The position numbers were made by a program, and so were the translations under genes. Source: Brassica napus (lineage: Eukaryota > Streptophyta > Magnoliopsida > Brassicales > Brassicaceae). From it: 64,000 nt of DNA. The stretch is from positions 8,907,065-8,971,064 of the forward strand of contig NC_063452.1 in assembly GCF_020379485.1 (NCBI RefSeq), written 5' to 3'. This document shows positions 1,430 through 63,053 of the stretch, piece by piece; position 1 is the stretch's first letter; each line of letters opens with the position of its first letter. The notes under the pieces were generated by a model. That model searched no databases. It was given only the letters and a program-made list of their open reading frames with translations, and was not told the origin of the DNA.

Positions 1430-3628
1430 CGTTATTGATTTTATTATATAATGTTGAAAAGTAAAAACACACGTCAATTTTACAAAGGTAAAATGTAAAA
1501 GCGAACCAATTCGTATGTAACAGTAAAATCAATCACACATATTTCATATGTTTTGAACTTTTGTGTGCGGTTTTGTAGATTTTGTAACTATATTTATATT
1601 AAAATTTAAATATATTTTCATATTATGAAAGTAAGAAGTAATTTAAGTTTTTGTTTAGCAACATAGATAGCAGTTAAAAAAGTAGTGTTGTTTTGCCTTA
1701 AATTTTTTTTTTTTTTTCTAACTTACTACTATCCGTGTTTCCAAACAACATTATTTTTTTAACTGCTATCTATGTTGCCAAACAAAAACTTAAATTACTT
1801 CTTACTTTCATAAGATAGATTTAACTTTTAATATAAACTAGATGATAATCCGCGTCCTGCGCGGAGTGATTTTTTTTTAAATACGTTGTATTTATATATT
1901 ATAAATAGTATATTTTGCTATCAATAACTTTTTTTTACATTTGAATCTTGGGAGTGGGCACTCGGGTACCATTTGGTTCGGTTCGATTTGGCTCGGTTCA
2001 GTTTGTTCCGATCTTTGCGAGTTCGATTTAATTCGAATATTTGCGGGTTTGGTTTGAGTTTGGATTCAGATAACTCATTTAATTTTAAAAACAAAATAAA
2101 ATTTATATATACTTTAAATTTCTCAAAATCTAAAAATAAAAATAATATATAACATATAAATTTGAATAATGTATGCCAAAATACTTAAACTTAAAATAAA
2201 ATTTGGTTTACCTTTAATATTTGGATAAGAAATAAATAGATAGTTTAAGTAATTTTGGTATTTTGAGTATTGATGATGATTCGTATTGATTTTGGGTATG
2301 CAATCACTTTTAGGCCAAAATACATTCTTCTATGTACGTGGTCCCTTTAGTTAAGGAAAACAATGGACTGAACTAAAGAAAACCTTACCATTTCAGATTT
2401 TTAATCGACACTTCCAAATTATTTATTGTCGGTATTGTGACGAAGAGAAAGGGGGTAAGGGTTACGAAAGAAATTTTGTTGTGCAATCCATATTCTTGCT
2501 AGGTGATTTCAATAGCTTCAAAATAAATCTCTGTTGTATCGACCGAGATTTAGTAATTTATAGACGTTTTAAAAAATTCAAAATATAACATATAAGAAAA
2601 AATCTAATTTTTTTATTATATGATTAATGTGATTGTTTAATTTATTTTAAAAATATAAACTTTCAAATATGGGAGAATCTCGTAATAAATAAATTATATG
2701 AAGTTGTTATCGATTATTTGGTGTGCAAGTCAAGTTAGTATGAATAATATCTTGTTAAGATTCTTGTAGATAAGGATTATATTTTCGAAATTAGTAGTTA
2801 CAAATATTATTTAAATAAATAATACATATAATTCCTAACTTCTACTCTATTCTTTTTTTTTTAAAAAAAATTTATAAATAGATATCATATTTTGGCACTT
2901 TTGAAATTATATTATTGAAGTTTATATAATAACATATTGTGTTCATAATGGCATGTATCTCTAAGTCTAATACATAATCAATCAACTTAGAGCCAAGTAA
3001 CATATATACAAAATGAGGTGTAAAAAGAGTTATCATATATTCATATCTAATCTATTATAGAAGCAAAGAGGAACCAAACATATACATGTTCGGTGTCTGA
3101 TTATATGATGTTGATAAGAGAAAGTTATAAATCAACTTAGAGCAAAGTTTAATCTATAGTAAAAGAGGTCCAAGTGAGAGTTATTAAATTGCTAATATAA
3201 TTGTATATACAGTATACAATCGGTATAGTTTAATAGAATAGATAGAACATAATTCAATAGAACATAATTCATTTGGTTTGTTATAATATAGTAGATTGTT
3301 GGTTTAATTTAAGTTATCTGGTTTTAATTTTATTGTATAATTAATTGTAACTAACAGGATATGGTCCATAAATTATGTAACACACTAACAAACTTGAAAC
3401 AGTCCAAAACTTAAATGACAACTTCAATGGTAGATAAATTTAGGACTCTATTTTAATAGAGTAGATATAGTTACAAAATCTACAAAACCGCACACAAAAG
3501 TTCAAAACATATGAAATATGTGTGATTGATTTTACTATTACATACGAATTGGTTCGCTTTTACATTTTACCTTTGTAAAATTGACGTGTGTTTTTACTTT
3601 TCAACATTATATAATAAAATCAATAACG
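1430..3628. repeat. Foldback (long inverted repeat) element split by a Helitron
   Basis: The left arm (1430 to about 1690) is repeated in inverted orientation on the right as about 1744-1837 plus 3466-3628. The match is near perfect; for example the outer 160 bp differ by about one base. The right arm is interrupted exactly by the Helitron at 1838-3465. The inner part of the hairpin resembles the 5' end of the Helitron family seen at 63386-64000 (for example GGCAACATAGATAG). The loop, about 1695-1743, is T-rich. No coding capacity is seen. Outer boundaries are set where the arms stop matching (CGTTATTG / CAATAACG). Confidence 0.8.
1838..3465 (-). mobile_element. Non-autonomous Helitron, 1628 bp
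   Basis: On the minus strand the element starts TCTACTCTATTAAAATAG and ends in a GC-rich hairpin (CCGCGCAGGACGCGG) about ten bases before CTAG, followed by T. These are Helitron termini. It sits between A (1837) and T (3466) with no target duplication. Joining the flanks restores a 25 bp match to the opposite arm of the foldback, so the insertion boundary is proven internally. The interior holds GGTTCGG-rich sequence near 1960-2070. No Rep/helicase gene is present, so it would need enzymes from elsewhere. Confidence 0.88.
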
Positions 3629-9199: not shown

Positions 9200-10159
9200 T
9201 CCTTCTCTTTGTGTGACTTTTATCCCAAGTTAATAACATAGCTTTCCAAGATCGGACATATCAAACCTTGCCGCCATATCTTGTTTAAAACTCACTATCA
9301 TCTCCACATTCGAACCGGTCACGAGTAAGTCATCCACGTAAACAGCCACGATCAAGAGGCATCCTTGTTCTTCCTTTCGATACTACAATGGTTCTTTAAG
9401 GCATCGTTTGAACCTTAACTCGTGAAGTATGGCGTTGAGCTTCTCGTTCCATGCCCTTGGGGCTTGTCGTAGGCCGTAGAGCGCCTTATGTAGCTTGTAG
9501 ACTTTGGTTTCTCTTCCTTTCATCACAAATCCCTCAGGCTGTGATAAGTAGACCTCTTCTTTAAGATCGCCATGCAAGAAAGCTGTTTTGACGTCTAGAT
9601 GATGCAACTCCCATCCTCGAGAAGCCGCTATCCCAATGATCAGATGCACGGTCTCTATCCGAGCAACTGGAGCGAAAACTTCATCAAAATCAATCCCATG
9701 ACTCTGTATGTAACCTTTGGCAACAAGTCTTGCTTTGTACTTGTTAATGCTTCCATCGAAGTTTCGCTTCACTTTGAAGATCCACTTCAATCCAATCGCT
9801 TTGCAGTTGTGTGGAAGATCAACTAAGGTCGACGTCTCGTTCTTTACTATGGATCTTATCTCGTCTTCGCAAGCATCTCTCCATACCTTAAGCTCCTTTG
9901 CCTCCTCGTAGTTCCAAGGTTCTTCATTCACCAACATCAGAAGGTGCTCATACTCAAGTTCACACAACGTCTCGTACATCTCATCTTCTTCTACTAATAG
10001 CTCATAGTCTTCGAGGTAGCTTGGCATCTTGGTCACGCGTGAAGAACGTCTCAGTTCTATCACCTCTTCTTCGTGCTTCTCATGATCGAGAGTCGTATCA
10101 CTTTCTTCAATCTTGACATCAATTCCCGTCTTATCTCCCGAGGTCTCTTGATCGCTCAT
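9200..10159 (-). pseudogene. copia reverse transcriptase, broken
   Basis: 10159-9383 encodes the N-terminal reverse-transcriptase region ([38 protein letters not shown]). A TAG follows just before the catalytic block, which is still readable downstream as YVDDLLVTG near 9320-9345. A further TAA falls at the position of the usual YYLGI motif. The first frame overlaps the end of the integrase frame by a few bases, which reflects a frameshift in an originally continuous pol rather than a real start codon. Confidence 0.9.
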
Positions 10160-10846
10160 ACTTTTGAAACCAAAGACATGTCAGACTCATCTTTGCCATT
10201 CTCAGACGTTTCTAGCCACCTTCCCTTTTGTGTCTCATCGAACACTACGTCTTTACTAACCACAATACTTTTAGTCATCAGATTAACCAAACGATAAGCC
10301 TTTGTTCCGGGCTCAGTTCCAAGGTGGACCAGAGCTCTAGATCGATCATCTAGCTTCCTCAAGTGTGCCGAGTCAATCTTTACATAGCCAACACATCCGA
10401 ACACCCTTATGTGTTCAACGTTTGGTTTCTTTCCCTTGAAGCTCTCGTATGGTGTTTGCAGTACCAGGGTCCTTGTTGCTAACCTGTTGATGAGATAGGT
10501 TGCATGTCTCACTGCTTCTCCCCACATGAAGTTCAGAACATCCATATGTTTTAGAATACTCCGTGTCATCTCCATCAACGTTCTGTTTCTTCTTTCCACA
10601 ACACCGTTTTGTTGTGGTGAATATGGTGCCGTTAAGTGTCGTTTTATTCCTGAGGTCTCGCAATAGAGGTTGAATTCTGTCGAGGTGAACTCTCCCTCCT
10701 CTATCTGTACGCAGTGTTTTGATCTTTGTTCCCTTCTCTTGCTCAACCAGAGCTTTAAATTTTTTAAATTTTGCAAAAGCTTCACTCTTTTGTTTCATTA
10801 GAATAGTCCACATATATCTTGAATAATCGTTGATCAAGACAAACAT
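10156..10846 (-). pseudogene. copia integrase core, frameshifted
   Basis: The frame opening at 10846 gives the first part of the rve integrase core (DDYSRY-type motif, here NDYSRYMW, and TLRTDRGG). A one-base shift then moves the rest to the frame running to 10156 (GEFTSTEF, TAPYSPQQNGVVERRN, GYVKIDSAHLRKLD). An in-frame TAG separates it from the gag-protease frame to the right. The family needs the D,D,E triad in one chain, and here the residues are split between frames. Confidence 0.88.
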
Positions 10847-12480
10847 CTATCTGTTACCACCTGCTGTAGGTGGTGATATAGGACCACATAAGTCTCCATG
10901 TACTAGCTCCAAGACCTCAGTTGCACGGTATAAACTCTCCTTTGGAAAAGATTTTCGTATTTGCTTCCCACACAAGCAAGCTTCACATGTCTCCTTCTCG
11001 ATACCGAAACGCGGTATTCCTATCACTAAGCGCTTATCAACCATGAGTTTCAAGTTGCTTAGACCTACATGTCCTAAGCGAGAGTGCCACTTCGATGATT
11101 CTCGGTGTAGTAGTTGAAGACACTTAGTGCTTTCTACCTCTATAACCACTTTGTATAGACGGTTTGGTGATCGTTTTGCTTTCACCAGAAAATTCTTATC
11201 ACGATCATAAAGGTAAAGATGATCTCCTTTCATATTTATCTCACATCCCGACTCAGTAGCCTGTCCAAGACTTAAGATGTTGCTTCGGAGGTCAGGAATA
11301 TAGTAGACATCAGAAAGTAGTTTCTTCTCACTTCTTGATGTCAAAAAGAGGATTGATCCTTTTCCTTTTATATCTATTCGAGAATCGTCTCCAAATCTCA
11401 CCTTTCCGGTTATGATATCATCAATCTTAGAGAAATATTCGAGGTTCCCGGTCATGTGGTTGCTAGCTCCATTGTCTAAGTACCACAGGTTGTCTCCGAC
11501 TGTAGTAAAGAGTTGCTTTGGCAGAACATTCTTCGCGTTGAGGTACACGACCTCATTAACCATCAACTCATCCGCTTCATGTGTGGTTTCTCCTTCACTT
11601 TCTTGTACTTCTTGGAGCTTAAGTAACCGATCAGGACAATTCTGCGTAAAGTGTCCCATCTTGTCACACCTGAAACATACCACCCTCGATGCATCTCTTT
11701 CTTGTGGTCGTTGATAGCCTCCACTCTGTTGATATCCATATCTCCTGCGGCCTCTACCTCGGTATCCAAAACGACCTCCTCTGCCTCTTCCTCTTGTTGG
11801 ATCATACCTCTCTTGTGTATGCGAGTCTGCGTTAGCATACATAAGTTTACTTTGACCTTGATCCTCTTGTTTCTCATCTTCTTCATCAGCAATTCTCTCT
11901 TCATACGCTTTTAATCTTCCCACAATATCCTCAAACCCTGTTTTGTTAAGATCAAGGACCTGCTCCAACGCAGCGATAATATGTATATATTTCTTTCTTG
12001 GTAGACTATGAAGGAATTTCTTTACTATCTTCGGCTCATCGATGATTTCTCCTAAAGCTGCTGACTTTGATGATAGTTCAGAGATTCTTCCAACAAAGCT
12101 ATCAATTGTCTCGCTTTCCTTCATCTTCAATCGATTGAAATCTGCTGTTAAAGTTTGTAGACGTGCTTCTCTCACACGATCAGCTCCCATATGTCTCATC
12201 TTTATAGCCTCCCATATTGCCTTTGCGGTATCAAGGTTTCCTACTTGCAGTATAGTGTTTCTGGTATAGATTTACACAACAACGCTTTTGCTAAATCATT
12301 CTTCTCACCATCCTCTTCTCCCGGATCAATGGCCTCCCCGGCTTTATGAACCTTCAATGCTGCCTTCATGCGCATTGTCCACACTGTGTAGTTGGTGCCG
12401 TTAAGTAACAAACACTGTATGGACGTAGAGCCCCCGCTCTTGTGGTTCGTATTGATCGTTGATGTAACAATATCTCCCAT
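10847..12480 (-). pseudogene. copia gag and protease region, frameshifted
   Basis: The gag start is the ATG at 12480 ([10 protein letters not shown]), shortly after the primer-binding site. The first piece ends at 12241 because of a one-base shift; the rest continues from about 12250 to 10847. In order it contains the UBN2-type gag region (ESETIDSFVGRISEL), a CCHC zinc knuckle (CFRCDKMGHFTQNC), the aspartic protease site in the form DNGAS (WYLDNGASNHMTG) and the GAG-pre-integrase motif (HSRLGHVGLSNLKLM). It ends at an in-frame TAG. Confidence 0.9.
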
Positions 12481-24332: not shown

Positions 24333-24341
24333 TTCTTGTAT

Positions 24342-24381
24342 GGGAGAATTGCCAAGTGTGACTCAAAACTTGGAGTCAAAC
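24342..24381 (+). repeat. MULE left terminal inverted repeat
   Basis: Begins GGGAGAATTGCC; inverted counterpart at 33690-33729. The best-matched block starts about 18 bp in (GACTCAAAACTTGGAGTC). Confidence 0.85.
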
Positions 24382-25090
24382 CAAAACAATACCCCAACTT
24401 GGGTCAAAGGCAAAAGTAACCTAAAAGGCTATTAAAATTACAACTATCCCCTTGTGACCAAACAAAAAAACGGAATTTTTTTTACGTTTCTACCCCTCGC
24501 AAGTCGTCTGTTTAGACGACTTGAAAATAAGTCGTCCAGACGACTTAACTGAAAGTCGTCTGGACAGTTAGTCTTAAACATAATTTAAAAATTTTGTAAA
24601 AAATATTTTGATAAGTGAAAAATGGGAATTATGTAATTAACATATGTCTTAGGAGGTATAAATTAAGATATAAACAATTTCAATTGTTTTCAGCATAGAT
24701 GAGTGAAAGTAGTGAGTCATGATATTCTTTAGTTTATGTTTCATCAACATATGTTGTAGTATTGTATGTGTTCTTAGGGTTAGATTTTGGAAAGCATTAA
24801 AACCGTTTTTGAAATTTTTTAAAATTACTTATGCGTGTTCATTTCTATGTATAGTAAACACTATTTAAGTATAATTTGATTTTATAACGTGGTTAGTTAG
24901 TTAATCTAGTCATTTTAGTTTAGGGGTTCATTTTAGGGTCTAGGACGACTTAATATTTTGTCGTCTGAAAACAGACGACTAAATATTAAGTCGTCTGTTG
25001 TACATTATCAGCCAGAATAAGTCGTCTAAACCGGACCAAACCTTAAAGTTTACCAATGTACTTTTAAAGCTAACCGGATTATTTACCCAA

Positions 25091-25098
25091 TATATAAG
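25091..25098 (+). promoter_or_regulatory. Probable TATA box of the ULP-like gene
   Basis: TATATAAG lies ~390 bp before the inferred start codon and just before a pyrimidine-rich, exon-like leader that begins near 25130. Confidence 0.5.
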
Positions 25099-25257
25099 GT
25101 GATTTTTATTTTTTTTGTTTCATTTTTCACGAAATTCAGAAACCCTAACAGTTCTCTCTCAAAGGCGATTTCGAATTCCCACGATTTCCGAACAAACCAT
25201 CGTTCTCAACGTCAGCTATCTATCTCACTTCATTCTCACCGTTGTCGCCGCAGCTTC

Positions 25258-25378
25258 TTCTAACCCTAGCGCCGCCGATTCCTCTAAACCCTAGCGCCGC
25301 CGATTCCTCTAAACCCTAGCGCCGCCGCTTCTTCTCTGTAAACCTTAGCGCCGTTTCTCTGTAAACCCTAACGCCGCT
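25258..25378 (+). repeat. Tandem repeat in the ULP-like gene leader
   Basis: About five units of a ~25 bp sequence of the form CTAAACCCTAGCGCCGCCG, progressively degenerate to the right, lie in the presumed 5' untranslated region. Confidence 0.8.
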
Positions 25379-25478
25379 AAGTCATCAATCTCGAGGAAAA
25401 GATGAACATAAAACGTTGTCTCTATCAATTTACTCATTCTCACCGTTTCACGTTTATTTTTTCAGATCAATAACCGCA

Positions 25479-28400
25479 ATGACGAGTACTCCAACTCCTT
25501 CTGCGACTGGAAGACTTGTAAGTAATTTAAGTCGTCTGGAAAGTCTTCCACCTGGACGACTTAGTAGATGACTTAAATATAAGTCGTCCATTTGGAAGAC
25601 TTTCCAGACGACTTAAATTTAAGTCGTCTACTAAGTCGTCTGGACTTATATTGTTGTCTTTGATTATTTTGCAGACAAAAAGGATGGATATTCCAGAACT
25701 CCCCCGTAGGTTATACACATCAGGGGAAGAGCCAGAAGCCCACAATAGCATTTCGTATCATACGGATAACAGCAAGTTGCATACTGCTCTTAGGAAAGCT
25801 CTTACTGATGACGAATTTGAAGAGCTCAAGGAGTCGAGTTTGGGAGTTTTCATCAAGTTCAAGGAGCAGGGATTTGGTTGGGCTTCAAGGCTGGTTCACT
25901 ACATGCTCAGTTTCAAGCTGGACATTAAGAAGAAGTATGAGATGTGGTCTCTCGTTGGTCCAGAACCTTTGAGGTTTTCACTGTTAGAGTTTGAAAACCT
26001 CACTGGTCTAAACTGCGAGTACATCGAGGACCTTGAGACACCAAAATGTGACGTTACCCCAGAGATGGTTTCTTTCTGGGGGATGCTGGGAGTTCATCTG
26101 GAAGCTGGGCCAACTACTGATCAGATAATAGCAGCACTGAAGAGATGCGGGGATTGGTCCAGGGAAGATCGCAAGCGGCTCGCGTACCTCTCCATCTTCA
26201 CTGGATTCATTGAAGGGAGAAAGTTTTCAACCGCTACACGATCTACTCTGGCAAGGCTAGTGATGGATTTAGAACGGTTTGAGAATTATCCATGGGGGAG
26301 AGTCGCGTTTAAGGTGCTGATGGACTCTTTGTGGAACAAAGAAATTGCTGGCTGTTACACCGTGGATGGGTTTATACAAGTTCTTCAAGTCTGGACGTAC
26401 ACAGCTATGCCGGAATTGGGTGCTAGTATTGGTGGTCCCAGAGCAGACAGTCCGTCTCCACCGATACTGGCTTACGAGGGCAGCAGAGGCCGCAGATCAA
26501 TGAAAGCTGCTATCTTGAGTCAGGTATTTACTTCAATCCAAAAGACTGCGCAGACGACTTATTATAAGTCGTCTGGAAAGTCTTCCCAGCTGGACGACTT
26601 ATTAGACGACTTATTATAAGTCGTCTGGAAAGTCTTCCATCTGGACGACTTATTAGACGACTTATTATAAGTCGTCTGGAAGGTCTTCCATCTGGACGAC
26701 TTATTAGACGACTTATAATAAGGCGTCTGGAAAGTCTTCCCAGCTGGACGACTTATCGGACGACTTAATTAAGTCGTCTGGAAAGTCTTCCATCTGGACG
26801 ACTTATTATAAGTCGTCTGGAAGGTCTTCCAGCTGGACGACTTAGTAGACGACTTATAATTAAGTCGTCTATTTAGTATTTTTTTTCAAATATCTAACTC
26901 GATTCTTCTATTTACTGCAGACCCGCGTGATCAACTTTGTTGAGAAGGACATTAGTGAAATGTGGCCAAAATGGGACTCTGAGGTTGAGGACCTGCCCGC
27001 GGAGAACATCATTAAAGTCATGTATGAGCGGAGACCGTGGAAGTGGACCATGGATTGCTGGGAAGTCACTGGTACTAAGGTCAATACAAAACCTAAGGTT
27101 GTGACTCCATCGAAGAAGGCCAAAGAGATGGTTGTGTTGGAGGAGGAGGAGGAGGAGGAAGACAATCCAAGACCTCGGAAGAAAGCTCGTAAAGAGGCTC
27201 CTGAAGAGGCTAGAGAAGAGGCTAGAGAAGAGGCTAGAGGGGTGACCAGAGAGGAGTTGGAAATTATGTTCAAGGGCGTAGCTGAGGCTATGAAAAAAGG
27301 GTTTAATAAGTGCATGAGGGAGTTTAGGAAGTTGTCTGATAGATTGGAAGCTGTGGAGAAGAAGGTTGGTGTCACCAATCAGGCTACCCCTCCACCTCTA
27401 ACCAATCAGGCTACCCCTCAAGATAAACAGCCTACCCCTCTTGCCAAAGAAACCGGGGGTAGAAACAAACAGGCTACCCCTCATGCCAATGAAACCGTGG
27501 TTAGTAACCAGCCTCCTCCTCATCAAACCAAACAGCAGCCTCCTCCTCCTCAAAAGAAACAGCAGCAGCCTCCTCCTCTTCAAAAGAAACAGCCTCCTCC
27601 TCAAAAGAAACAGCCTCCTCAAATCAAATATGTTAGTATCAAATCCAGGGTTAACTAGTTGTCCAGACGACTGTAAAAGTTGTCTGGACGACTAGTTGAC
27701 CCTGGACGACTTAAACGTAAGTTGTCTGGACGACTAGTTGACCACGGAAGACTTAATTTTAAGTCGTCCAGGGTCAACTAGTCGTCCAGACAACTTTTAT
27801 TTAAGTCGTCCAGGGTCAACTAGTCGTCCAGACAACTTTTATTTAAGTCGTCCAGGGTTAACTTGTGTGCAACTTTTATTGCAGAGATGGTTGCCGGAGG
27901 ATACAGCAACCGAGGCGAACTCGGTAAATAAAGCAGATGGTGTCACCTCCAAAGAGATTGTTGCTGTCACTTCCACCGATCACCAACCGAGCCTCGCTTC
28001 CACAGATCAACAACCGAGCCTCGCTTCCACCGAGCCAAGCGATCCAGTTTCACAACCGAGCCTGGTTGTATTGGACAAGCGTGCAAAGAGTAAACGAGCG
28101 AAGAAACCTGCTCCTACTGTGAGATCTCCTTATATGGCAGAGAAAAAAAAAGATAAAGTGGCAGCCTATAATCCATTTCCGCCAGTAAACAAAGAAAAGT
28201 TGAAGGAACTCGCTGATTGGTTGAAAACTGATCCGTAAGTGATTGCTTTACCCATAATAGCTTGATTTAGTCGTCCAAAACTGATTGCTTTTTTGTTTGC
28301 AGTCATTATTTAACTAAGATCGAGGACAAACCACGTACATCACCAACAAGGTGGTACCACTTCCTCCGGACAGCCAGAGGATGGCTGGAAGACTGCGTAA

Positions 28401-29278
28401 GTCTTCTGCACACGATTTAAGTCGTCTACAAAGTCGTCCAAGTAGACTACTTTCCAGACGACTTAAAGATAAATCGTCTGGAAAGTCGTCTACTTGGACG
28501 ACCACGTAGACGACTTATAATTAAGTCGTCTTCGTCTGGTAACTTCTAACTTGTTATATTTAATATGCAGCATATAGATGCTTGGATTAATGTGCTAAGG
28601 CAGAGGTATCAGGAGAACCCACAAGCTTTCAGGAGCGAGCGAATGTGCTTCCTGGATCACAACTTTTCTCAGTCTTGGAGAGAGCAGTATCAGCTCTTCA
28701 AAACATCGGAACCTGATCACAAAGGTTTAGGAAGAGTTCTACCTGGTGGGGCGTCGTATTTTTATGACGGATCAATACCTTCATTTTGCCAATCAAACAA
28801 GAAGTGGGGGGAGGACATTGATGATATCTATGCGCCAGTGAACTTGGACGACAAGCATTGGGTTGCTATTTGGATATCGATCCCTAAGAGGCACATAGTC
28901 GTCTGGGACAGCATACCTTCATCTAGTGTACCAGACGCATGGGATGCGATAATGGAGCCTTTTCTCCAGATGGTCCCTTATCTGCTTGTTGAGTGCGCAG
29001 CCACCGACGAAATGCGGGTCAAATACGGGTTGGAGCCATACACATATGAGAGACCGCTGAAAGGTGTACCCACGGCCAACAATGGTGATTGTGGCGTGTA
29101 CACTGTAAAGTACATTGAATGTCATGCGCTCGGGGGCTCCTTTGACCCTAAAGACTTTGCTAGGTGCAACGCGAAGAAAATGAGGGATAATATGGCGGTG
29201 GATATATGGAAGGAGCTTGTTGATCAGCATCTGAAAGAAAATGTGGATGGTGATAAGTTCGTGGGCATGTATGATTAG
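25479..29278 (+). CDS. ULP1-like (C48) cysteine protease gene of the MULE, 6 exons
   Basis: The exons I read are 25479-25517, 25675-26523, 26921-27631, 27885-28234, 28303-28396 and 28571-29278. All have GT/AG borders and join in frame to 916 codons with no stop. Exon 2 encodes a DUF1985-like domain (LVHYMLSFKLDIKKKYEMW, then PLRFSLLEFENLTGL). Exon 3 encodes an acidic run, a basic nuclear-signal-like RPRKKARK, a coiled-coil-like stretch and a P/Q/K repeat tail. Exon 6 is the ULP1 protease core, with H777 (DKHWVAIW), D794 (VVWDS) and C855 (GDCGVY). Such enzymes cleave SUMO or related modifiers; the substrate here is unknown. The Gln expected six residues before the Cys is Thr. The family rides on MULEs. 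Donor 3 (GTTAGT) is the least certain junction. Confidence 0.88.
25518..28570. repeat. GTCGTC-type repeat arrays filling the introns of the ULP-like gene
   Basis: All five introns (25518-25674, 26524-26920, 27632-27884, 28235-28302, 28397-28570) contain copies of AAGTCGTC or GACGACTT, mostly joined as short imperfect palindromes such as AAGTCGTCTGGACGACTT or with GGAAAGTCTTCC between. Intron 2 is almost entirely such units. The smallest intron has one partial copy. The exons between them are essentially free of the motif. Confidence 0.9.
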
Positions 29279-29282
29279 ATTT

Positions 29283-29420
29283 GTATTTGAACATGATTTT
29301 TTAACATGATTTTTGTATTTGAACATGATTTTTTAACATGATTTTTGTATTTGAACATGATTTTTGAACATGATTTTTGTATTTGAACATGATTTTTTAA
29401 CATGATTTTTGTATTTGAAC
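29283..29420. repeat. Tandem repeat behind the ULP-like gene
   Basis: Repeated units of TTGAACATGATTTTT / TTAACATGATTTTTGTAT, six to seven in a row, begin five bases after the stop codon. They would lie in the 3' untranslated region. Confidence 0.85.
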
Positions 29421-29895
29421 ATGATATAAGTTGTCTGGAAGAAATAAGTCGTCTGGAAGGTTTTCCAACTGGACGACTTACAAATAAGTCGTCTGGAAGG
29501 TTTTCCAACTGGACGACTTACAAATAAGTCGTCTAGAAGGTTTGGACGACTTATTATAAGTCGTCTGGAAGGTTTTCCAACTGGACGACTTACAAATAAG
29601 TCGTCTAGAAGGTTTGGACGACTTGAAGGGATAGTAGAAGGTAGTCTAAAAATAAAATACACTTGAAGGGATAGTAGAAGGTCGTCTAAAAATAAAATAC
29701 ACTGGACGACTTAGTAGAAGGTCGTCTAAAAATAAAATACACTTGAAGGGATAGTAGAAGGTCGTCTAAAAATAAAATACACTGGACGACTTAGTAGAAG
29801 GTCGTCTAAAAATAAAATACACTGGACGACTAAATATTTAGTCGTCTAGACGGGTAATCAAGACGGGACGACTTAAATTTAGGTCGTCTGGACAA
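29421..29895. repeat. GTCGTC arrays in the spacer between the convergent MULE genes
   Basis: First come units of TAAGTCGTCTGGAAGGTTTT, then about five units of ~40 bp containing AGAAGGTCGTCTAAAAATAA. They separate the 3' ends of the protease and transposase genes and may act in termination for both; that role is inference. Confidence 0.85.
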
Positions 29896-32292
29896 CTAGT
29901 CAACTGGTTGTGTACATTGTGGTTTCGTATGGCCAGTTTCCTTGCAGTTTGAGCATCTCCGTGCCCTGTGTTTCTTCCTGGGTTTGTGTCCTCTCATCCT
30001 AGATAGCTCCAACCAAGATTGCCATCTTGATTTCTTCGGTCTCCCCCGACCACGCTTTAGTTCTGGAGGAAAGCATTCTCGTTCCTCAATATGTTGTGAC
30101 ACGATAGGATATATATTCTCTGAGTATCCTGCATACAGATAATTCTTTGAGTACAGTGGACATACAAGTGTGGAGATATGCAAACCAGCATGTATTCCAG
30201 CAGCTATAGCATGAGAGCAAGGTATTTTCTCCACTCCATAGACACCACAATCACACTTTGCATGTTCCAAATCAACCACACAGTCCATTTTGCCACCTTT
30301 GACAAAGAAATGCCATCCATCAATTGGTTCGACCGTCATCATACCCGCTATCTCTTCTCGAACAGCAAGCAAGTATTCAACAGCCCGGCTATGTTCAGTT
30401 GTGAGACTCAAAGCATCTTGTCTCCTTTTCCAATACCATTTTCCTAACTTCTGCCTTATGAACTCCAGCAGGAACGTAATCGGAAATCCTCTTGCTCGCT
30501 TCAGTGCGGAATTAATAGATTCAGCAATGTTGCTTGTTTTTATGTTGAACCTGTTCCCCTTACAATAAACCCTTGACCATAGCCTGACGTCGGCTTTCTC
30601 CAAATACGTTGCAAGTTCCGGGTTTGCACTCCGTATCTCAGCCATGTACCGGTCAAAATCGTAAACCGTGTGAGCATAAGCAGCCCCTTTCACCAAGTAC
30701 ATGAGATGTTTCCCTTTAAACTTTTTGACAATGTTATCTTGAAGGTGATAATAACATATTCCTCGGGTTGCCCAAGGAAACACCTTATCACACGCACTTT
30801 TAATGGCCTTGTGCCGGTCGGAGACTATCACCAGAGGCTTGTCATGAGATATACAACTAGCCAATTTTGTGAAAAACCATTCCCAAGAAGGTATATCTTC
30901 CTCATCCACGATCCCAAAAGCCAATGGGAATATCTGAAAATTGCCATCTTGTGCGGCTGCAACTAACATAGTTCCTCCATACTTTCCACTTAGGTGAGTT
31001 CCATCCACCACAATGACCCTTCTCTGATACTTAAAACCTTTGATAGAAGCTCCAAAAGAGAGAAATAGATACTTAAATCTTTTCATAGAATCAAGTTCTA
31101 TCGCCGTGATAGAATCAGGATTTGCAATGGAGATTTGCTCGAGATATGATGCCAGACGCGAATACCCTTCTTCTGCTGATCCTCTCACCAATCTTTGTGC
31201 ATATAACAGTGCTCTGTATGAAGTGGTGTAATCAAGCGCCATGCCAAACATGTTCCTCATTGCATCAGTGATATGCTGCGGAGTTATCCCATCAATGATT
31301 CCAACACGATCAATGAAAAGACTACCTACATACTTCGGAGTACAGTGTCTCCGCTGAGCGATTCGGTCTCCCGCTGAGCATAAATGTTTTTCCACATACT
31401 TTGTTACCCAAAACGTGTTTGTCCCATGTTTGACACTCGCTCTGACCTTCCATCCACAATAGCTAACCGGACATGTTGCCACAACGAGAGTTTTCGTTGA
31501 TTTGTATAATCTGAAAGAAAACTTACCCCTCACTGCTGCCAACCGCAGCTCTGAAAGCAGTGCACCCTTGCTAACAAAACTCTGGTTGACATAGATGGTA
31601 CCATTCGATTTTCCTCCTTCAATAGCATTTGTCTTAGCATATGCCTTTTGGATTTCTTCAAAACAAATATTATCATCATCTTCCTCGTCCTCATCTGGAA
31701 CCTTTCCATAAAGACTGTAATCCCCACCATTCTGATCCGTTTCACCAACAATAGAATTATCAGCATCCTCCTCCCCATTTTCCTCCTCCCCATCTTGATT
31801 TTCATCTTCAACAAACTCATTATCACCAACATCTTCATCATCACCACCAACATCTTCATCATCACCACCAACATCTTCTTCCCATTCACCAGCTTCATCA
31901 TTATCACCAACATCTTTTTCCCATTCACCAGCTTCATCAATATCCCTTTTCTCTGAAACCGTTTCGACCTTGCTGCGGCTTGATACACAAAGACATACTC
32001 TATGGGTTTTGAGTATCTCCAGCAAGTTTCGAACTTGTCTATCACTTGTAACATGAATGGGAAGACTGCCTGGAGCCATCATCATTTCTGCTGGTAATGA
32101 GTAGCTAATCTCCACACTCACTGTTCTCATGTCCAGGTTATAATCTTCTTGAGCCATTGCAACAAGTTCAGCATGTGTTGAATCTTCATTCAATAAAAAC
32201 AATCTTGCTCCTTTGAGATCATCAACCACAAAATCCCAACGGAAATCTCTCAACAACCATTCTCCATACACTGCATGTAACTGAAAAATCAT
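29896..32292 (-). CDS. MURA-type MULE transposase, 798 aa
   Basis: An uninterrupted frame. I place the start at the ATG 32292-32290 because a 3' splice site (ATTTGCAG) lies directly before it; the upstream in-frame extension is repeat-derived. In order: an N-terminal PB1-like region, an acidic tract (residues ~112-207, many DED/EEN), a MuDR-type zinc DNA-binding segment (CPVSYCGWKVRA...EKHLC, ~274-305), the MULE transposase domain with D430 (VVDGTHLSG), D492 (VSDRHK) and E591 (NIAESIN) as likely DDE residues, a SWIM zinc finger (CDCGVYGVEKIPCSH, ~680-694), an AT-hook-like KRGRGRPKK (~746-754) and a CCHC knuckle (CSNCKETGHTKPQC, ~780-793). It should bind the element ends and catalyse excision and insertion. 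No defects seen. Convergent with the ULP-like gene. Confidence 0.93.
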   Translation of the reverse strand: MIFQLHAVYGEWLLRDFRWDFVVDDLKGARLFLLNEDSTHAELVAMAQEDYNLDMRTVSVEISYSLPAEMMMAPGSLPIHVTSDRQVRNLLEILKTHRVCLCVSSRSKVETVSEKRDIDEAGEWEKDVGDNDEAGEWEEDVGGDDEDVGGDDEDVGDNEFVEDENQDGEEENGEEDADNSIVGETDQNGGDYSLYGKVPDEDEEDDDNICFEEIQKAYAKTNAIEGGKSNGTIYVNQSFVSKGALLSELRLAAVRGKFSFRLYKSTKTLVVATCPVSYCGWKVRASVKHGTNTFWVTKYVEKHLCSAGDRIAQRRHCTPKYVGSLFIDRVGIIDGITPQHITDAMRNMFGMALDYTTSYRALLYAQRLVRGSAEEGYSRLASYLEQISIANPDSITAIELDSMKRFKYLFLSFGASIKGFKYQRRVIVVDGTHLSGKYGGTMLVAAAQDGNFQIFPLAFGIVDEEDIPSWEWFFTKLASCISHDKPLVIVSDRHKAIKSACDKVFPWATRGICYYHLQDNIVKKFKGKHLMYLVKGAAYAHTVYDFDRYMAEIRSANPELATYLEKADVRLWSRVYCKGNRFNIKTSNIAESINSALKRARGFPITFLLEFIRQKLGKWYWKRRQDALSLTTEHSRAVEYLLAVREEIAGMMTVEPIDGWHFFVKGGKMDCVVDLEHAKCDCGVYGVEKIPCSHAIAAGIHAGLHISTLVCPLYSKNYLYAGYSENIYPIVSQHIEERECFPPELKRGRGRPKKSRWQSWLELSRMRGHKPRKKHRARRCSNCKETGHTKPQCTQPVD

Positions 32293-33238
32293 CTGCAAAT
32301 ATTCAAAATAAAACACATTAGTAAACATAGAGAAAATGAAGAAGTTCAATAAACATTGCCGCAGACGACTTAGCATTAAGTCGTCCAGAAGACTTAAAGG
32401 TAAGTCGTCTAAAGAGGTCACTTTTGCAATTGAAAATTAAAAGGGACGACTTAATTCTAAGTCGTCCGGCTTTGTTTGTTAAAAAAAAAACTTCAGACGA
32501 CTTATATATAAGTCGTCTACGAGAAACGGGCTAGTTTTGCATTTGACCGAATCGTGTCAGATCTTTGACTATTTCTGGACGACTTATAATTCAGTCGTCT
32601 CTGGGAAAGTTAAAATTTCAATATTTTATGAAAACTTGACGACTTACGTGTAAGTCGTCCTAAGGTTAGTTTTGTAATTGAAAAATAAAACTTGAAATTT
32701 AACTTTCTCCAGACGACTTAGATGAAAGTCGTCCAGCTAAACGACTTAATTTAAGGTCGTCCGGGATAAGCAAGGTTTGACCAGAAAATTGGGAAAAATT
32801 CTGGACGACTTTGCTTTCCCCGGACGACTTTAAATTAAGTCTTCTGGAGGGACGACTTTATATTAAGTCGTCTGGTTAAAGTTAAATTATGAAGTTTTAT
32901 TTTTCAATTACAAAACTAACCTAGGACGACTTACACGTAAGTCGTCAAGTTTTCATAAAATATTAAAATTTTAACTTTCCCAGAGACGACTGAATTATAA
33001 GTCGTCCAGAAATAGTCAAAGATCTGACACGATTCGGTCAAATGCAAAACTAGCCCGTTTCTCGTAGACGACGTATATATAAGTCGTCTGGAGTGTTTTT
33101 TTTAACAAACAAAGCTGGACGACTTAATTTAAGTCGTCCGTTTGACCAGAAGACTCATCAGTAAGTCTTCTACATACAGATGACTTACTAGTAAGTCTTC
33201 TACGCGAACAGATCTTGAAAAAAAATTCAAATTCGTAC
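32293..33238 (-). other. Inferred leader intron of the transposase gene
   Basis: On the minus strand a donor (AAG|GTACGA) at 33238 and an acceptor (TTTGCAG) at 32293 would remove this 946 bp stretch, leaving a noncoding first exon between 33239 and roughly 33450. It is filled with GTCGTC motifs and the long inverted repeat described separately. The splice sites are read by eye only. Confidence 0.6.
32443..33139. repeat. Long inverted repeat in the transposase leader intron
   Basis: The arms, about 32443-32730 and 32850-33139, match in reverse complement over ~290 bases with few differences. They include unique stretches such as GGGCTAGTTTTGCATTTGAC that are unrelated to the GTCGTC motif. The spacer is ~120 bp. 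An RNA from either strand could fold into a long near-perfect hairpin. Confidence 0.9.
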
Positions 33239-33689
33239 CTTAAACTAGGTGAGATGACTTCGTTTGCACACAGGGTCTTCTCCAACCACCCAGAACCTCA
33301 AACGAAAGCAACCGTAAGTAAAAACGAAAGAAATATGGCTCTGTCAACCATAGCCCATATTTTGAATCAAAAGCTTGAGTTTTTTGGATGAATATAGAGA
33401 GAAAGTGAAAGAAATGTTGTTTTTAGTTCATAACAATTGAAACAGAGAGAGTGTAAAGAGATTTACGTGCATTAAAGGGCATTAAAAGCTCCAAACAGTT
33501 CGTACAAGGTTGTTGCCACTATTCATTGCAGTGGCAATATTGTAAATACTTGAAGAAGATGAGGTTGAGACAGTAAAGAAGCCATTTTCGAAAAAAAAAA
33601 AAAATGTTAATGGCATTTTCGTAGATAAAATGCAGGTGTGGGGTTAAAATCTCAAAAAAAAAAGGAGTCAAAAGAAAAGGTTAGTTTTC

Positions 33690-33729
33690 TGTTTGACTTC
33701 AAGTTTTGAGTTACTTTTGCAAAAAGCCC
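33690..33729 (-). repeat. MULE right terminal inverted repeat
   Basis: On the minus strand it begins GGGCTTTTTGC and shares ACTCAAAACTTGAAGTCAAAC with the left end. The transposase promoter must lie within about 300 bp of it. Confidence 0.85.
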
Positions 33730-33738
33730 TTCTTGTAT

Positions 33739-57135: not shown

Positions 57136-59651
57136 TCATTTAGGAGCATTAGGACTTTTAATCTCTTTAGAATCATTGTTAGATGATCCTTCACCTTCAC
57201 TGCTTTGGAAGTCTTGGGTCGACAAAGCTATCTGTCTGAATTTCTTCATATCTGCATTGTAAGATGTCTGGCTATAATCTGAGCTTGTTCCTGATGTCCC
57301 GTAAATGTTACTATGTCCCGGCTTCACACCTTCATATAAAACATCTAGTGACACTTCTCCTTCTAACGCTCTTACAATCTGAAAGAAAACAAAACATAAC
57401 ATTTTTTTTGTTATTATCTGAAAACAAAAGGAATCCATTTTGATGTTATACTATTGGTTCACCTGGCTCATCTTTGGGCGTTTACGTCCAGAATGGCGAA
57501 TGCTAGCAGCAGCACAAGTCACCATTCGAGCCATTTCTTGCGGGTTGTAGTTGCCTTCAAGCCTTACATCTGCGAGCTCATTAAAGTTTCCATCTTCTAG
57601 CGCGCGAACCATGATAGGACGAGCCTATATTTGTAGTAAAGTGCAATCAGTAGTACCCGTAAAAAAGGCAAAAGCATATACCAACGTTTGTAAGTAGGAA
57701 AAATGAAAAAAACATATATACCCAGTCTACTAAGGTGTCGTCCATGGTACTGTTACTATCGACCGGTCTTTTCCCAGTGATTAGTTCTAACAACATGACA
57801 CCGTACGAGAAAACATCGGACTTCTCAGTTAATTTACCGCTCGATGCATATTCTGGAGCTAGATATCTACACATGTTTGTGCAGAGAAGTAAATTGGTCA
57901 CTCTACAAAGGTTATGCTTCTTGAGTAGTATGAAAAATCTTATCTAGTGAAAAAAACGCTTACCCGAAAGTTCCCATCACACGAGTAGATACATGAGTGT
58001 AGTTATCAGAAGTTAACTTGGCCAATCCAAAATCAGCCACCTGAAAAAAGACAAATGCTTAAAGTCACCAGCTATAGTGATTTTGTATCAACATAAACTG
58101 AAGCTGAATGCAGCCACTAGTTTATCACACCATTGCATCAAAGTTGAAGTCCAAGAGAATGTTTGCAGACTTGATGTCACGGTGAATGATCCGAGGATGG
58201 CCTATGACGATTTCTCAGCCCAAAATGAATTACTAGTCAGAAATTTTTTTCACTTTTTTTGCAACATTGGTTGAGATATGAGATTGGTGTAATGTTGAAA
58301 CTCACAGTCTTCATGAAGATAAGCGAGTCCTTTCGCAGAACCTAATGCGATACGCATCCTGGTGGAGAAATCCATTACTGGAAGATTCTTCCCTGTAATA
58401 ATAATAACAACCAACAAAGGTTAAAAAGTCTTGAATCTATAGACTACATAAAACATTGTGTTGTAAGTTTGAAGTGTCTAACCATGAAGATGATATTCCA
58501 AAGTATTGTTAGGAACAAATTCATAAACCAACATTCTCTGCCCATCAGCAATACAATATCCAACCAAAGAAACAAGATATCGATGATGCACACGGCTAAT
58601 GATATCAACCTCAGCTTGAAACTCTCTTTCTCCTTGTCCGCTACCCGATTTCAAACTCTTAACCGCGACTTCTTTCCCACTAGGCAACACACCTTTATGC
58701 ACATACCCAAATCCTCCCTGTCCCAAAAGGTTAGAATCCACAAAGCCTCCTGTTGCAGCCGCGAGCTCTTGGTAAGTAAAAGTGCTTTTGTTGAATCCGA
58801 GGGCTAGAGTAGGTGGAGGAGGAGGTAAAACCGGGCGTGCTGGTCCTGAGTACAAGGAAGAATTATCTCCGCTTGCAGGCATCCGTGGAGGAGGAGGAGG
58901 CGGTGATGGTCCACTGCCTCCCCAACCACCAGAAGGTTGTTGGTTTTGGCCTTGTGAATTTAGGTGCCAATTTGGATAATTCTGTGAAGCATTGTTGCTG
59001 TTGTTGTTGTTTCCATAGTATTGATATTGATTTCCTGAGAAATATGTAAAATGGTGAAACTTTTGATGCAGCAACAGACGTACGTATATGTGTGTAGTAA
59101 ATGGTTTTACCTTTCATGGATTCAGCGTCGAAGGAATCATCTTTTCTCTTCCTTCTGCGTCTAAGACACACAATAATAAGCACGATCATCAATAGTCCAG
59201 CTCCAGCTAATACACCTATAATGATCGCCGTATTCGTATTAATACCTCCTCCCCCTCCTCCACCGCTAGTGCCGCTACCTCCACCACTAGTACTGCTGCC
59301 ACCTCCACTAGAGGGAGAATTATTCGAGCGAGAGCTACCATTATCTCCAGATGGTGACGTTCTACTACCACCATTATCTCCACCCCTAGATGGAGGAGAA
59401 GGAGGGGAGCCACGTGACGGTGGAGACTCATTGCCGCCGCCATTTCCTCCACCACCCTGTGATGCCGGTGGAGGAGGAGAGTTATTGCTGGAAACCGGGG
59501 GAGAAGGAGCTTGTGGAGCTGGTGGTGAGGTGGAATCAGGAGGAGGAGGTGATGAGCCTTCTTGAGTAGGAGGAGGAGGAGATGGAGACGGTGGAGACGG
59601 AGAAGAGCTTGAATTTGACGGTGGGGGAGCAGATTCTGGGGAAGAAGCCAT
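57136..59651 (-). CDS. PERK4: Proline-rich extensin-like receptor kinase PERK4, 8 exons
   Basis: Exons on the minus strand: 59651-59111, 59034-58483, 58392-58306, 58201-58131, 58040-57964, 57866-57722, 57624-57463 and 57378-57136. They join in frame to 625 codons plus stop. The N-terminal ~140 residues are P/S-rich with [13 protein letters not shown] extensin motifs that tie to the cell wall; there is no classical signal peptide, as in other PERKs. One transmembrane helix follows ([20 protein letters not shown]) and a basic stop-transfer RRRRKRK. The kinase has [34 protein letters not shown] and [10 protein letters not shown], so it is active-type. Arabidopsis PERK4 links the wall to ABA and calcium signalling in roots. 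Downstream of the LCV3 and DnaJ genes it matches At2g18470. No defects. Confidence 0.95.
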
Positions 59652-61376
59652 TGGAGAAGAAGAAGAAACCTCTAAAATACAAACTCTCTATCTTCTCTCC
59701 CTTAATCACTCAAATTGTCTAAGAACAACAAACAACAAACAACAAAACGTAGATACACAAATCATTTATCAGATGGTGTTATTTGACCATGATTTCTTGT
59801 GTTATTATATTTGTCAGATAACTAACAATTAACAGCAAACAGAGTAATGCTAAGATTGTTAGATTTAATACAAAACTAGCAAGAGATTAGTACCTTAGAG
59901 AAAAAGATTAAGGGGAGAGTGCAAGAATAGAGAGAGAAAGAAACATTTTGGTAAGAAAATGATTATAGAAAGTAAGTAAAGAGATGAGATTTGCTCAGTC
60001 TTCATCCCGACAAACATGCCTCTTCTCTCTCTGTGTCTTAATAACTGTTTTTCTGTTAGTTAGTTGCATCGGTCTTATTTTTTTCATTTTGAGTCCATGA
60101 TATTAGGAGCTAAAGATGTTGATTCAATTCCACGTAAATCCATGCATTATTTGTTTGTTAGTTGCATCCATTGAATTAACTCATCTTTTGTTTTATTTAA
60201 AGCTTTAAATTTAAATGGTTAATCCATTTTTTTAAATTATTTTACATTGATCAAAGTTTGTTTGAGTGTTGTTATAATAGAAATGAGATAATATATTATT
60301 TTACATATATTTTATGTTTTAAATAATAACCCACAAAAAATGTAATCCTAATATTAACAATAATCTGATTTACCATATAAACAAATATTATATGTAGTAC
60401 CAATTTTAAAATTTTATTTATATCAAATAAATAAATATTAATTTATTTTAATATTTTACTTATATAAAATAAATAAATATTAACTTATTTTTATATTCCA
60501 ATATAAATAATATCAGCTGATATTATATGATGAACATAGCATAATACAAAAAAATGTTTAAATAATGAAACCATTTAGATAAATAAATTATATAAAGTAA
60601 CGTGTGATTCATAAATATAAGAGGAGTAAATATTATGTAGAATTGATGAATCACATGTTGGAATCAATAATTATGATGCGCCGTTAGAATTTTAATGAGA
60701 ACATAAAGCAACAAAAGTCCTTGTAACAACACGAATGTTCAAAAGTCCTTCATGTGTACTGTGTAGATCATCTTCAGTTATTGGATATTTGACCTTTAAT
60801 AAAGAGTATAGTTTCATTTCAAACACACAATGACACAAAAAGTAATAAACCAAAATAGGGTAAAAATTAGTAATGTTCTTGTTTTAATAATATAGACAGG
60901 AATCTGTGATTGGTTTGCAAAATTTGGGTAGTTAAGTTGTTATTTATGTATGCAAACTATGCTACACATCTAACCCCAGGTTAAAAATTATAAAAATGCT
61001 AGGTTGAAAACTAGACATACATCTTAATTCTTTACATGGTGCATGTGCAATCAGAATTAACGACTAATCAAACCAGACCGGTTTTATGACAAAGTGATTG
61101 GATTTTTAATAATCGAACAAAAGAAGCCATGCCTCGTAGGTAACTAATAGTTCAATATACCAGTGCCATGACATACAATCAATCGATCTAACAGAAGTCT
61201 ATCAGAATACGTAACTATTGGAGTGTTGGACCACAAGCCTATTAGACTTAATTTTGTCACACTTATAATTCCGAAGAAGATTTTATCCTCAAATGTAACA
61301 ACTTTGTAACACAATTTTCAACAACTTAATTCAGGAGAGGTAACGTATCGGGAAAGTCATCTATCGAGCCCTTCAC
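59652..61376. other. PERK4 promoter side and spacer
   Basis: 59652-60060 holds the leader and probable promoter of PERK4 (GA-rich near 59905-59945). The remainder is AT-rich, with the repeated TATAAATAAATAAATATTAA-like sequence near 60420-60485. No gene is found. Confidence 0.5.
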
Positions 61377-61384
61377 TATATATA
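61377..61384 (+). promoter_or_regulatory. TATA box of the P450 gene
   Basis: TATATATA lies ~70 bp before the start codon. Confidence 0.65.
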
Positions 61385-61449
61385 CAAGTCTCTTTGGAAT
61401 TGTACACTCACCTCTCAAGAAACATAGCTTAAAAAGAGAAAATTTGAAA

Positions 61450-63053
61450 ATGGCGATCTTGCTCTCTTTGTTTTTGGTTTTGCTTCTTACTCTTGTATCA
61501 TCAATCTTTCTTAAGAAGTTACAAAACTCAAAACTCAATCTTCCTCCTAGCCCCTCAAGTCTTCCTCTCATTGGAAACTTGCATCATGTTGCAGGGTTGC
61601 CTCACAGATGTTTTCATAAGCTATCAATCAAATATGGACCGGTGATGCTTCTTCGACTTGGCTTTGTTCCGGTGGTTGTGATCTCATCCAGTGAAGCAGC
61701 TGAAGCGGTTCTAAGAACTCATGACTTGGAATGTTGCAGCCGACCAAAGACGTTCGGGACAAGAAAACTCTCTTACGGCTTTAAAGACATCTCCTTTTCT
61801 CCATACGGTGCTTATTGGCGGGAAATGCGAAAAATCGCGGTTATTGAGCTTTTTAGCCTTAAGAAGGTTCAATCTTTTAGGTACATTAGAGAGGAAGAGG
61901 TCGACTTCGTGGTAAAGAATCTGACGGAATCTTGCTTGAAACAATCTTCCGTGGATTTAAGCAAAACCTTCTTCTCCCTCACCGCAAGCATCATCGGTAG
62001 AGTAGCTTTAGGACAGAACTTCCACGAGAGCGGCTTCATTATTGATCAAGAAAGGATCAAAACGCTTGTTACGGACGCAGTGGAAGCTCTAGGGACTTTC
62101 ACTTTCTCTGACATCTTCCAGGGCGGAGTCGGAAGATTCGTAGACTTGCTGTTTCAACGACACAAGAAGATCAACAAAATCTTTAAAGAGCTTGATGCTT
62201 TTTATCAGCATGTGATTGATGATCACTTGAAGCCAGAAGGAAGGAAAAATCTGGATATCGTTTCCTTGATGTTGGATATGATCGATAAACCCGAAAATGC
62301 AGATTCTTTCAAACTCAATATGGATAATCTCAAGGCAATCCTCATGGTAAGAAGCCCATCAAATCATGGTTTTGTTTCACATCTTATATTAAACCACAAC
62401 TATATAGAATTAGATTTTAATGTTTGTTATGTGATCTTCAGAATGTGTTTCTTGGCGGGATAGATACAAGCTCTATAATAATGATTTGGGCGATGACAGA
62501 ACTTGTTAGAAACCCTAGAGTGATGAAGAAAGCTCAGGAAAATATTCGAACCATCCTTGGGGCCAAAAGGGAAAGAATAACTGAAGATGATCTATACAAA
62601 GTTGATTACTTAAAGCTCATAATCAAGGAAACATTCAGATTGCATCCACCAGTTCCATTTATCGTCCCAAGGGAAACAATGTCTCACATCAAGATCAAAG
62701 GCTACGATATTCCCCCGAGAACGCAAATCCAAATTAATGTATGGACAATCGGACGTGACCCCAAGCGTTGGACCGACCCTGAAGATTTCATCCCTGAACG
62801 GTTTACTAATAGTTCTGTAGATTTCAGAGGACAACATTTTGACCTATTACCTTTTGGTTCTGGTCGAAGGATGTGTCCCGCGATGTCAATGGCGGTTGCT
62901 ACTGTGGAACTAGGTTTGATGAATTTGCTTTACTTCTTCGACTGGGGATTGCCAAATGGGATGGAAATTGGAGAAATTGACATGGAAGAATTTGGCAATC
63001 TCACCATTATCAAGAAACTACCTCTTCAACTTGTACCCCTCCGACGTTACTGA
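61450..63053 (+). CDS. Cytochrome P450, CYP71B-type, 2 exons
   Basis: Exons 61450-62346 and 62442-63053 give 502 aa. The intron lies just before the I-helix, as in A-type plant P450s. N-terminal membrane anchor ([20 protein letters not shown]), proline hinge ([13 protein letters not shown]), WREMRKI C-helix, I-helix GGIDTSS (~304-310), ExxR as KETFRLHPP (E362, R365), PERF, and the heme loop [11 protein letters not shown] with the ligand C444. It would sit on the ER and hydroxylate a small specialised metabolite with electrons from P450 reductase; the substrate cannot be told. The last position of the FxxGxRxCxG signature is Ala, which I believe occurs in some CYP71B members. No neighbour suggests a biosynthetic cluster, and I cannot name the ortholog. 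Confidence 0.93.

Follow-up and report, generated by a model that had tools for sequence, protein, structure and literature searches.

VANC21, the anti-silencing protein of the Arabidopsis element VANDAL21 (Hiun), binds the motif YAGTATTAY in the non-coding parts of its own family, leading to a loss of methylation (Hosaka 2017, PMC5735166). According to the same paper, the targets of VANC6 from VANDAL6 carry AGTTGTCC or AGTTGTAC, and DUF287 is drawn on VANC proteins (PMC5735166). Some VANC genes, the KIU genes, carry an Ulp1 domain and target motifs belonging to their own group, as stated in a 2026 review (PMC13317346). Kaonashi (KIU) has been described as a Mutator-like element (MULE) without terminal inverted repeats (TIR), in which a C48 peptidase gene runs in reverse to the transposase, and ULP genes have also been reported in TIR-MULEs of melon and grapevine (PMC2528002). 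Here, we describe an element of this kind in a stretch of 64,000 nucleotides of Brassica napus (contig NC_063452.1, positions 8,907,065 to 8,971,064; referred to as the window). The element spans window positions 24342–33729 (9,388 bp) and encodes a DUF1985–Ulp1 fusion protein and a MULE transposase. Its kind, VANC and Ulp1-carrying VANC genes, is already known; the window element adds a new member that has a motif of its own. It is likely to be an autonomous VANC-type MULE of B. napus, presumably of the C subgenome, whose fusion protein would bind the element's own motif arrays and lift silencing.

As with VANC21 and VANC6, a DUF1985 protein is encoded by a MULE and a short motif is clustered in non-coding DNA. 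The form of the motif is also similar (AGTTGTCC and YAGTATTAY there, AGTCGTCY here); indeed, the 8-mer AAGTCGTC is one base off a published VANC6 motif (PMC5735166). Differences are also present: the window protein has a C-terminal Ulp1 domain, DUF287 was not found in it, the motif is a different one, and no VANB-like gene is apparent among the open reading frames of the window, among which no homology search was aimed at one. Furthermore, many of the motifs form head-to-head dyads, whereas PMC5735166 speaks of tandem repeats. With Kaonashi, the element shares a C48 gene (plus strand) in reverse orientation to a mudrA-type transposase (minus strand) and a high copy number (PMC2528002, PMC6117577, PMC13317346). 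Unlike the non-TIR Kaonashi, however, it has imperfect inverted termini, in which 33 of 40 alignment columns are identical, and it was not filed as a Kaonashi in the strict sense for this reason. An earlier note on this DNA, made from the letters alone, had called it Kaonashi-type, which agrees with the opposite orientation of the genes but not with the termini. Ulp1-VANC systems across eudicots, with a DUF1985 plus Ulp1 architecture and protein–motif co-evolution, are reportedly the subject of a 2022 EMBO J study by Sasaki, and the window element resembles them in both respects. The Brassica motifs AAGTCGTCY and AAGTCTAC, the head-to-head pairing, the switch from AAGTCGTC to AAGTCTAC, and the young burst described below were not found by searches of open-licence papers, and no claim of a first report is made.

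The DUF1985–Ulp1 gene lies on the plus strand, and its six exons, spliced by GT-AG introns, yield 916 codons. Exon 1 (25479–25517) contains the ATG, exon 2 (25675–26523) encodes the DUF1985 domain (PF09331, E = 6.4e-26), and exon 3 (26921–27631) is a charged, Pro-Gln-rich linker. Exons 4 (27885–28234) and 5 (28303–28396) follow from the GT-AG splice model, and exon 6 (28571–29278) encodes the Ulp1/C48 peptidase domain (PF02902, E = 5.8e-37). P0001, an annotated relative from B. napus, matches codons 17–916 with 92% identity and 40 gap letters; it spans junctions 2/3, 3/4, 4/5, and 5/6 of the model and is without a stretch of exon 3. Since P0001 begins at a Met in exon 2, the backing for exon 1 comes only from its splice signals. 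Alternatives exist at three splice sites of introns 3 and 4, and eight splice combinations consequently stay open (906–922 codons). When exon 2 was compared with all PDB sequences, the sole match was VANC21 (9lnj_A, residues 70–220) with an E-value of 1.3e-4 and 24.7 bits, the E-value being 0.068 with a profile of 75 relatives. The homology of this VANC-type domain, for which DNA binding is predicted, was detected by sequence and not by fold. Exon 2 also matches the plant mobile domain (PMD) below threshold (E = 0.0007). PMD is also found in host silencing-related proteins.

The catalytic triad of the Ulp1/SENP type is present in exon 6 (H777, D794, and C855) and is nearly invariant among 121 sequences. 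A C48 (Ulp1/SENP) fold is supported by the PF02902 match and by a structure model of P0001; this full-length model, whose mean predicted local distance difference test score (pLDDT) is 56, served only for the Ulp1 domain, which also fills its list of fold matches. Generally, the oxyanion-hole Gln of Ulp1 is located six residues before the catalytic Cys. In the window protein, Thr occupies this position (codon 849), and across the protease family the aligned letters are Pro in 42 of 97 and Gln in 38 of 97. The domain is therefore named Ulp1-like rather than a SUMO protease. Compared with Ulp1, SENP1, and SENP2, it shows 15–18% identity over the aligned part and, unlike these SUMO proteases, it is fused to DUF1985. 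The SUMO-protease-like enzyme of the earlier note thus stands as far as the fold and triad are concerned, but not for the oxyanion residue.

The 8-mer AAGTCGTC is the commonest 8-mer of the element's non-coding part, with 77 copies, none of which is located in a coding exon. Only 2 copies are found in the other 54.6 kb of the window, and the whole-window count of 79 compares with 1.16 expected. A family-specific short motif clustered in non-coding DNA, as in the VANC family, is therefore present (77 of 77 8-mers). The motif lies in the context TAAGTCGTC in 67 of the 77 copies and is followed by C or T in 75, and the 7-mer AGTCGTC has 88 non-coding copies in the element. Eight copies of AAGTCGTC/GACGACTT are located in the 5′ non-coding region of the protease gene (24342–25478, plus strand), 6 in intron 1 (25518–25674), 18 in tandem and inverted arrangement in intron 2 (26524–26920), 4 in intron 3 (27632–27884, with 9 copies of the 7-mer), and 6 in a palindromic arrangement in intron 5 (28397–28570). 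The stretch between the two genes (29279–29892) holds 13 copies, and the 5′ non-coding region of the transposase gene (32293–33729, minus strand) holds 22. The density reaches 34–45 per kb in introns 1, 2, and 5, as compared with 7 and 15 per kb in the two end regions.

The motif blocks are both tandem and palindromic. Forty-four of the 77 copies are contained in 22 head-to-head dyads, whose spacers of 4–6 bases comprise 15 distinct sequences. Shuffling of the strands (5000 times) gave a mean of 7.6 dyads and a maximum of 15, although duplicated units make the 22 observed dyads non-independent. The spacings between motifs of the same strand showed a resultant of 0.54 at 10.0 bp, a weak signal from few independent repeat units, and were not used. 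Intron 3 carries a palindrome of 168 bp (element positions 3333–3500), and the largest palindrome, 704 bp long, imperfect and 91% self-complementary, is located upstream of the transposase gene (32440–33143). In 2 of the 16 element copies described below, L002 and L010, the latter palindrome matches better (98%) in the opposite orientation, which suggests a flip by recombination or repair. If transcribed, this palindrome could form hairpins that give rise to small RNAs.

Families B–E were obtained by searching the genome with diverged relatives. In family B, in which exon 2 is ~64% identical to that of the window gene, 15–19 copies of AAGTCGTC are present per 3.9 kb (5 of the 8 fetched loci were tallied). 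Locus L024 of family D contains 19 copies, and L025, an older copy of the window element's own family, contains 17. The motif is thus kept in two related families. The more diverged family E, which was found via P0090 (38% identical overall to the window protein), has no AGTCGTC in any of its six loci and contains 11–14 copies of AAGTCTAC instead; three of these loci show near-equal counts and may be recent duplicates. In L035 and L039, 10 of 14 and 11 of 13 copies of AAGTCTAC, respectively, are direct repeats just before the DUF1985 exon. This repeat stretch contains in-frame stops, and one AAGTCTAC copy in each locus is inside the DUF1985 exon. The repeat region of family E and the annotated start of P0090 overlap. 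The position of the array presumably corresponds to intron 1 of the window gene, and the array appears to have held a comparable position through the change of motif from AAGTCGTC to AAGTCTAC. A motif that follows its protein is the behavior published for VANC and its targets, and the sequences point to the same behavior in Brassica. An assignment of coding status by tblastn ranges, which placed 9 of 42 window-gene motifs and 7–11 of the 11–14 family E motifs inside, was set aside because the ranges crossed introns and stops; curated exons and, for family E, an inspection of the stops were used instead.

The 9-bp target site duplication TTCTTGTAT is found at 24333–24341 and, as a perfect match, at 33730–33738. 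Imperfect terminal inverted repeats occupy 24342–24388 (plus strand) and 33683–33729 (minus strand), and the identity given above was obtained over ~40 bp by aligning the left end with the reverse complement of the right. The transposase gene (29893–32292) is a single minus-strand frame of 798 codons from the ATG at 32292 and is convergent with the protease gene. It encodes DBD_Tnp_Mut, MULE, and SWIM domains and a sub-threshold CCHC knuckle; PF10551 was matched with an E-value of 3.7e-23, and PF03108 and PF04434 were above their cut-offs. Both the MULE-type transposase and the duplication of ~9 bp are hallmarks by which the element was assigned to the MULEs. The perfect duplication with imperfect inverted termini, the six-exon protease gene of 916 codons, and the uninterrupted transposase of 798 codons had all been proposed in the earlier note; each was recovered here, and the GT-AG joins of the protease gene are open and agree with P0001 at the junctions from exon 2 on.

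The 997-Mb genome was searched with the whole element, and the best 16 of 4016 candidates, each 8.9–9.6 kb long, were compared. As the best-scoring copies, these (the window copy and 15 others) are biased towards intact ones. The duplication is perfect in 15 of 16 copies and has a single mismatch in the 16th. The first 40 bases of the left end are identical in 15 copies (L008 has 2 mismatches), and the last 40 bases of the right end are identical in 12, with 1 mismatch in each of the other 4. Fifteen of the 16 copies retain an open 916-codon frame, the exception being L013, in which an in-frame deletion leaves 783 codons. The transposase frame runs uninterrupted to its stop in 14 copies (798 codons in the window copy, L001, L002, and L003, and 791 codons in 10 others) and is broken in the other 2. 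Full-length versions of both genes are carried by 13 copies, the window copy and 12 of the 15 others, in keeping with the complete, possibly autonomous element that the earlier note had proposed from the sequence.

The substitution divergence from the window copy is 0.10–0.13% in 10 of the 15 other copies and 0.19, 0.21, 0.34, 0.57, and 0.61% in the remaining five. The last two values belong to L002 and L010, and most of their excess is probably due to the reversed match of the 704-bp palindrome, since neither gene carries a substitution in these two copies. At a substitution rate of 1.5e-8 per site per year, a divergence of 0.1% corresponds, as an order of magnitude, to a few tens of thousands of years. 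Genome-wide, with up to 3 mismatches allowed, the left end was found at 410 places, and a 40-mer of exon 2, with up to 2 allowed, was found at 391; the reversed controls gave 0 in both cases. Among the ~100 matches listed of the 410, all left-end sites are perfect and located on contigs C243, C262, C294, and C348. Among the ~100 listed of the 391, all exon-2 matches are also perfect; one is on C211 and the rest are on the same four contigs. When the initial portion of a B. rapa protein (from residue 1) served as the query, matches of 95–98% were located on contigs below C243 or on the small contigs C2528 and C654. From this placement, we infer that the A subgenome is made up of contigs below C243, and the C subgenome of the large contigs from C243 onward. 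None of the ~100 left-end matches listed of the 410 points to movement into the A subgenome, and the amplification burst looks specific to the C lineage. A candidate for post-polyploidy movement, C211:1976765, was rejected as an old copy, with 7 of 40 mismatches in its left end and flanks without a duplication. The homeologous site is empty: the joined flanks of the window element recur without a break at a single other locus of the genome, C211:6742406–6742677, with 97% identity and one TTCTTGTAT. The insertion would accordingly postdate the split of the A and C lineages. The low divergence, the intact duplications, and the empty site bear out the recent insertion that had been suggested earlier, and the element may still be active.

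The dN/dS (ratio of nonsynonymous to synonymous substitution rates) of the protease, which the earlier note had named as a check, is below 1, with values of 0.43–0.71 for the DUF1985 and ULP exons (nine comparisons with six loci, some of which have stops). These exons thus appear to be constrained, but not strongly. Values of 0.37–0.83 for exons 3 and 4 were not used. Apart from the 729-codon comparison given below, those of the transposase were uninformative (1.18 over 31 codons, and 1.36 for L029 with a dS of 0.004). The 16 young copies differ by 9 changes in the protease and 28 in the transposase, too few for dN/dS, and the protease changes of L013 and most transposase changes of L014 and L015 seem to adjoin deletions and look like alignment errors.

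Taken as a VANC-type element, the DUF1985 half would bind the TAAGTCGTCY sites, which are densely packed in the larger non-coding blocks and frequently paired head to head, and this binding would confine the DUF1985–Ulp1 protein to its own family of copies. Host silencing would be lifted at the arrays, allowing both genes to be transcribed, and the transposase would act at the element ends, making transposition possible. The Ulp1 half, with its triad intact, would probably act on silencing proteins at the array sites, stripping them of SUMO or a related modifier. The countering of host silencing, which the earlier note had tentatively ascribed to the protease, is plausible, yet the better-supported agent would be the DUF1985 half, through its homology to VANC21, together with the motif arrays. 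Both had been missed by that note, as had the palindromes in the introns and the transposase 5′ region. A bolder version, about which we are doubtful, is that a VANC-type DUF1985 domain binds as a dimer to inverted TAAGTCGTCY pairs within the element's introns and brings a SUMO-type protease to the element's own copies. The anti-silencing step would then be the local stripping of the modifier rather than binding by itself, and Brassica families would carry a readable protein-to-motif code (AAGTCGTC versus AAGTCTAC). Several observations weigh against the VANC-type reading. The VANC21 match is modest; the model of the DUF1985 exon (105 relatives) is poor, with a mean pLDDT of 51, and gave no useful Foldseek match. 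DUF287 was not found in 3 relatives (E up to 0.1) nor in exons 2, 3, and 6, and the VANB-like third gene is likewise not apparent among the reading frames, within the scope given above. The oxyanion Gln is replaced by Thr six residues before Cys855, and PMC6117577 calls SUMO an unlikely substrate for the Kaonashi proteases of Arabidopsis. Protease dN/dS is moderately below 1, no lower than that of the transposase (0.69, 729 codons). One AGTCGTC copy lies inside exon 6, two decayed loci of family C hold just 5 and 10 motifs, and duplicated units make the dyads and spacings non-independent, while arrays can spread without selection.

Other explanations place the activity elsewhere. The Ulp1 half might be the real worker without sequence guidance, as a diffusible SUMO/NEDD8 protease that weakens silencing generally, with arrays that serve the transposase or are passive. 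This is unlikely, since the motif switches with the VANC clade (all six family E loci lack AGTCGTC and carry AAGTCTAC), the densest arrays sit in the introns of the VANC gene, and DUF1985 has been retained and shares homology with an anti-silencing protein that binds DNA. The location of 22 motifs in the 1.4 kb before the transposase gene and of 8 in the opposite end would also be explained if they were transposase binding sites, like the subterminal repeats of many class II elements, unrelated to the protease gene. However, protease introns 1, 2, and 5 are far denser than the ends, and in family E, the family's own motif forms an array immediately upstream of the DUF1985 exon, so that we regard such a role as very improbable. 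Least probable of all is a protease gene that is a passive passenger, with neutral repeats carried along by a successful transposase. The between-family dN/dS of only 0.43–0.71 and the obvious tandem and palindromic duplication fit this possibility, but the 916-codon frame has stayed open in 15 of 16 young copies and the triad is nearly invariant. Moreover, the 8-mer is kept in family B despite the divergence of exon 2, it is absent from curated coding exons, and the dyads have 15 distinct spacers.

The VANC-type reading bears on two points raised in the literature: PMC5735166 treats the action of VANC after binding as an open question, and PMC13317346 describes what the Ulp1 domain does in such elements as unknown. 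Young copies that look intact, in the genome of a crop, are available in the present family, along with a clear candidate for the target motif, a homeologous site that is empty, and a sister family whose motif differs. The predicted binding and the need for the protease are directly testable in it.

As for the neighborhood of the element, the translations of the other reading frames in the window were judged by eye. Frames resembling a Copia-type retrotransposon are located at 9383–12271 on the minus strand. An apparent proline-rich receptor-like kinase gene occupies 58478–59687, also on the minus strand, and an apparent cytochrome P450 gene is found at 61330–63053 on the plus strand.
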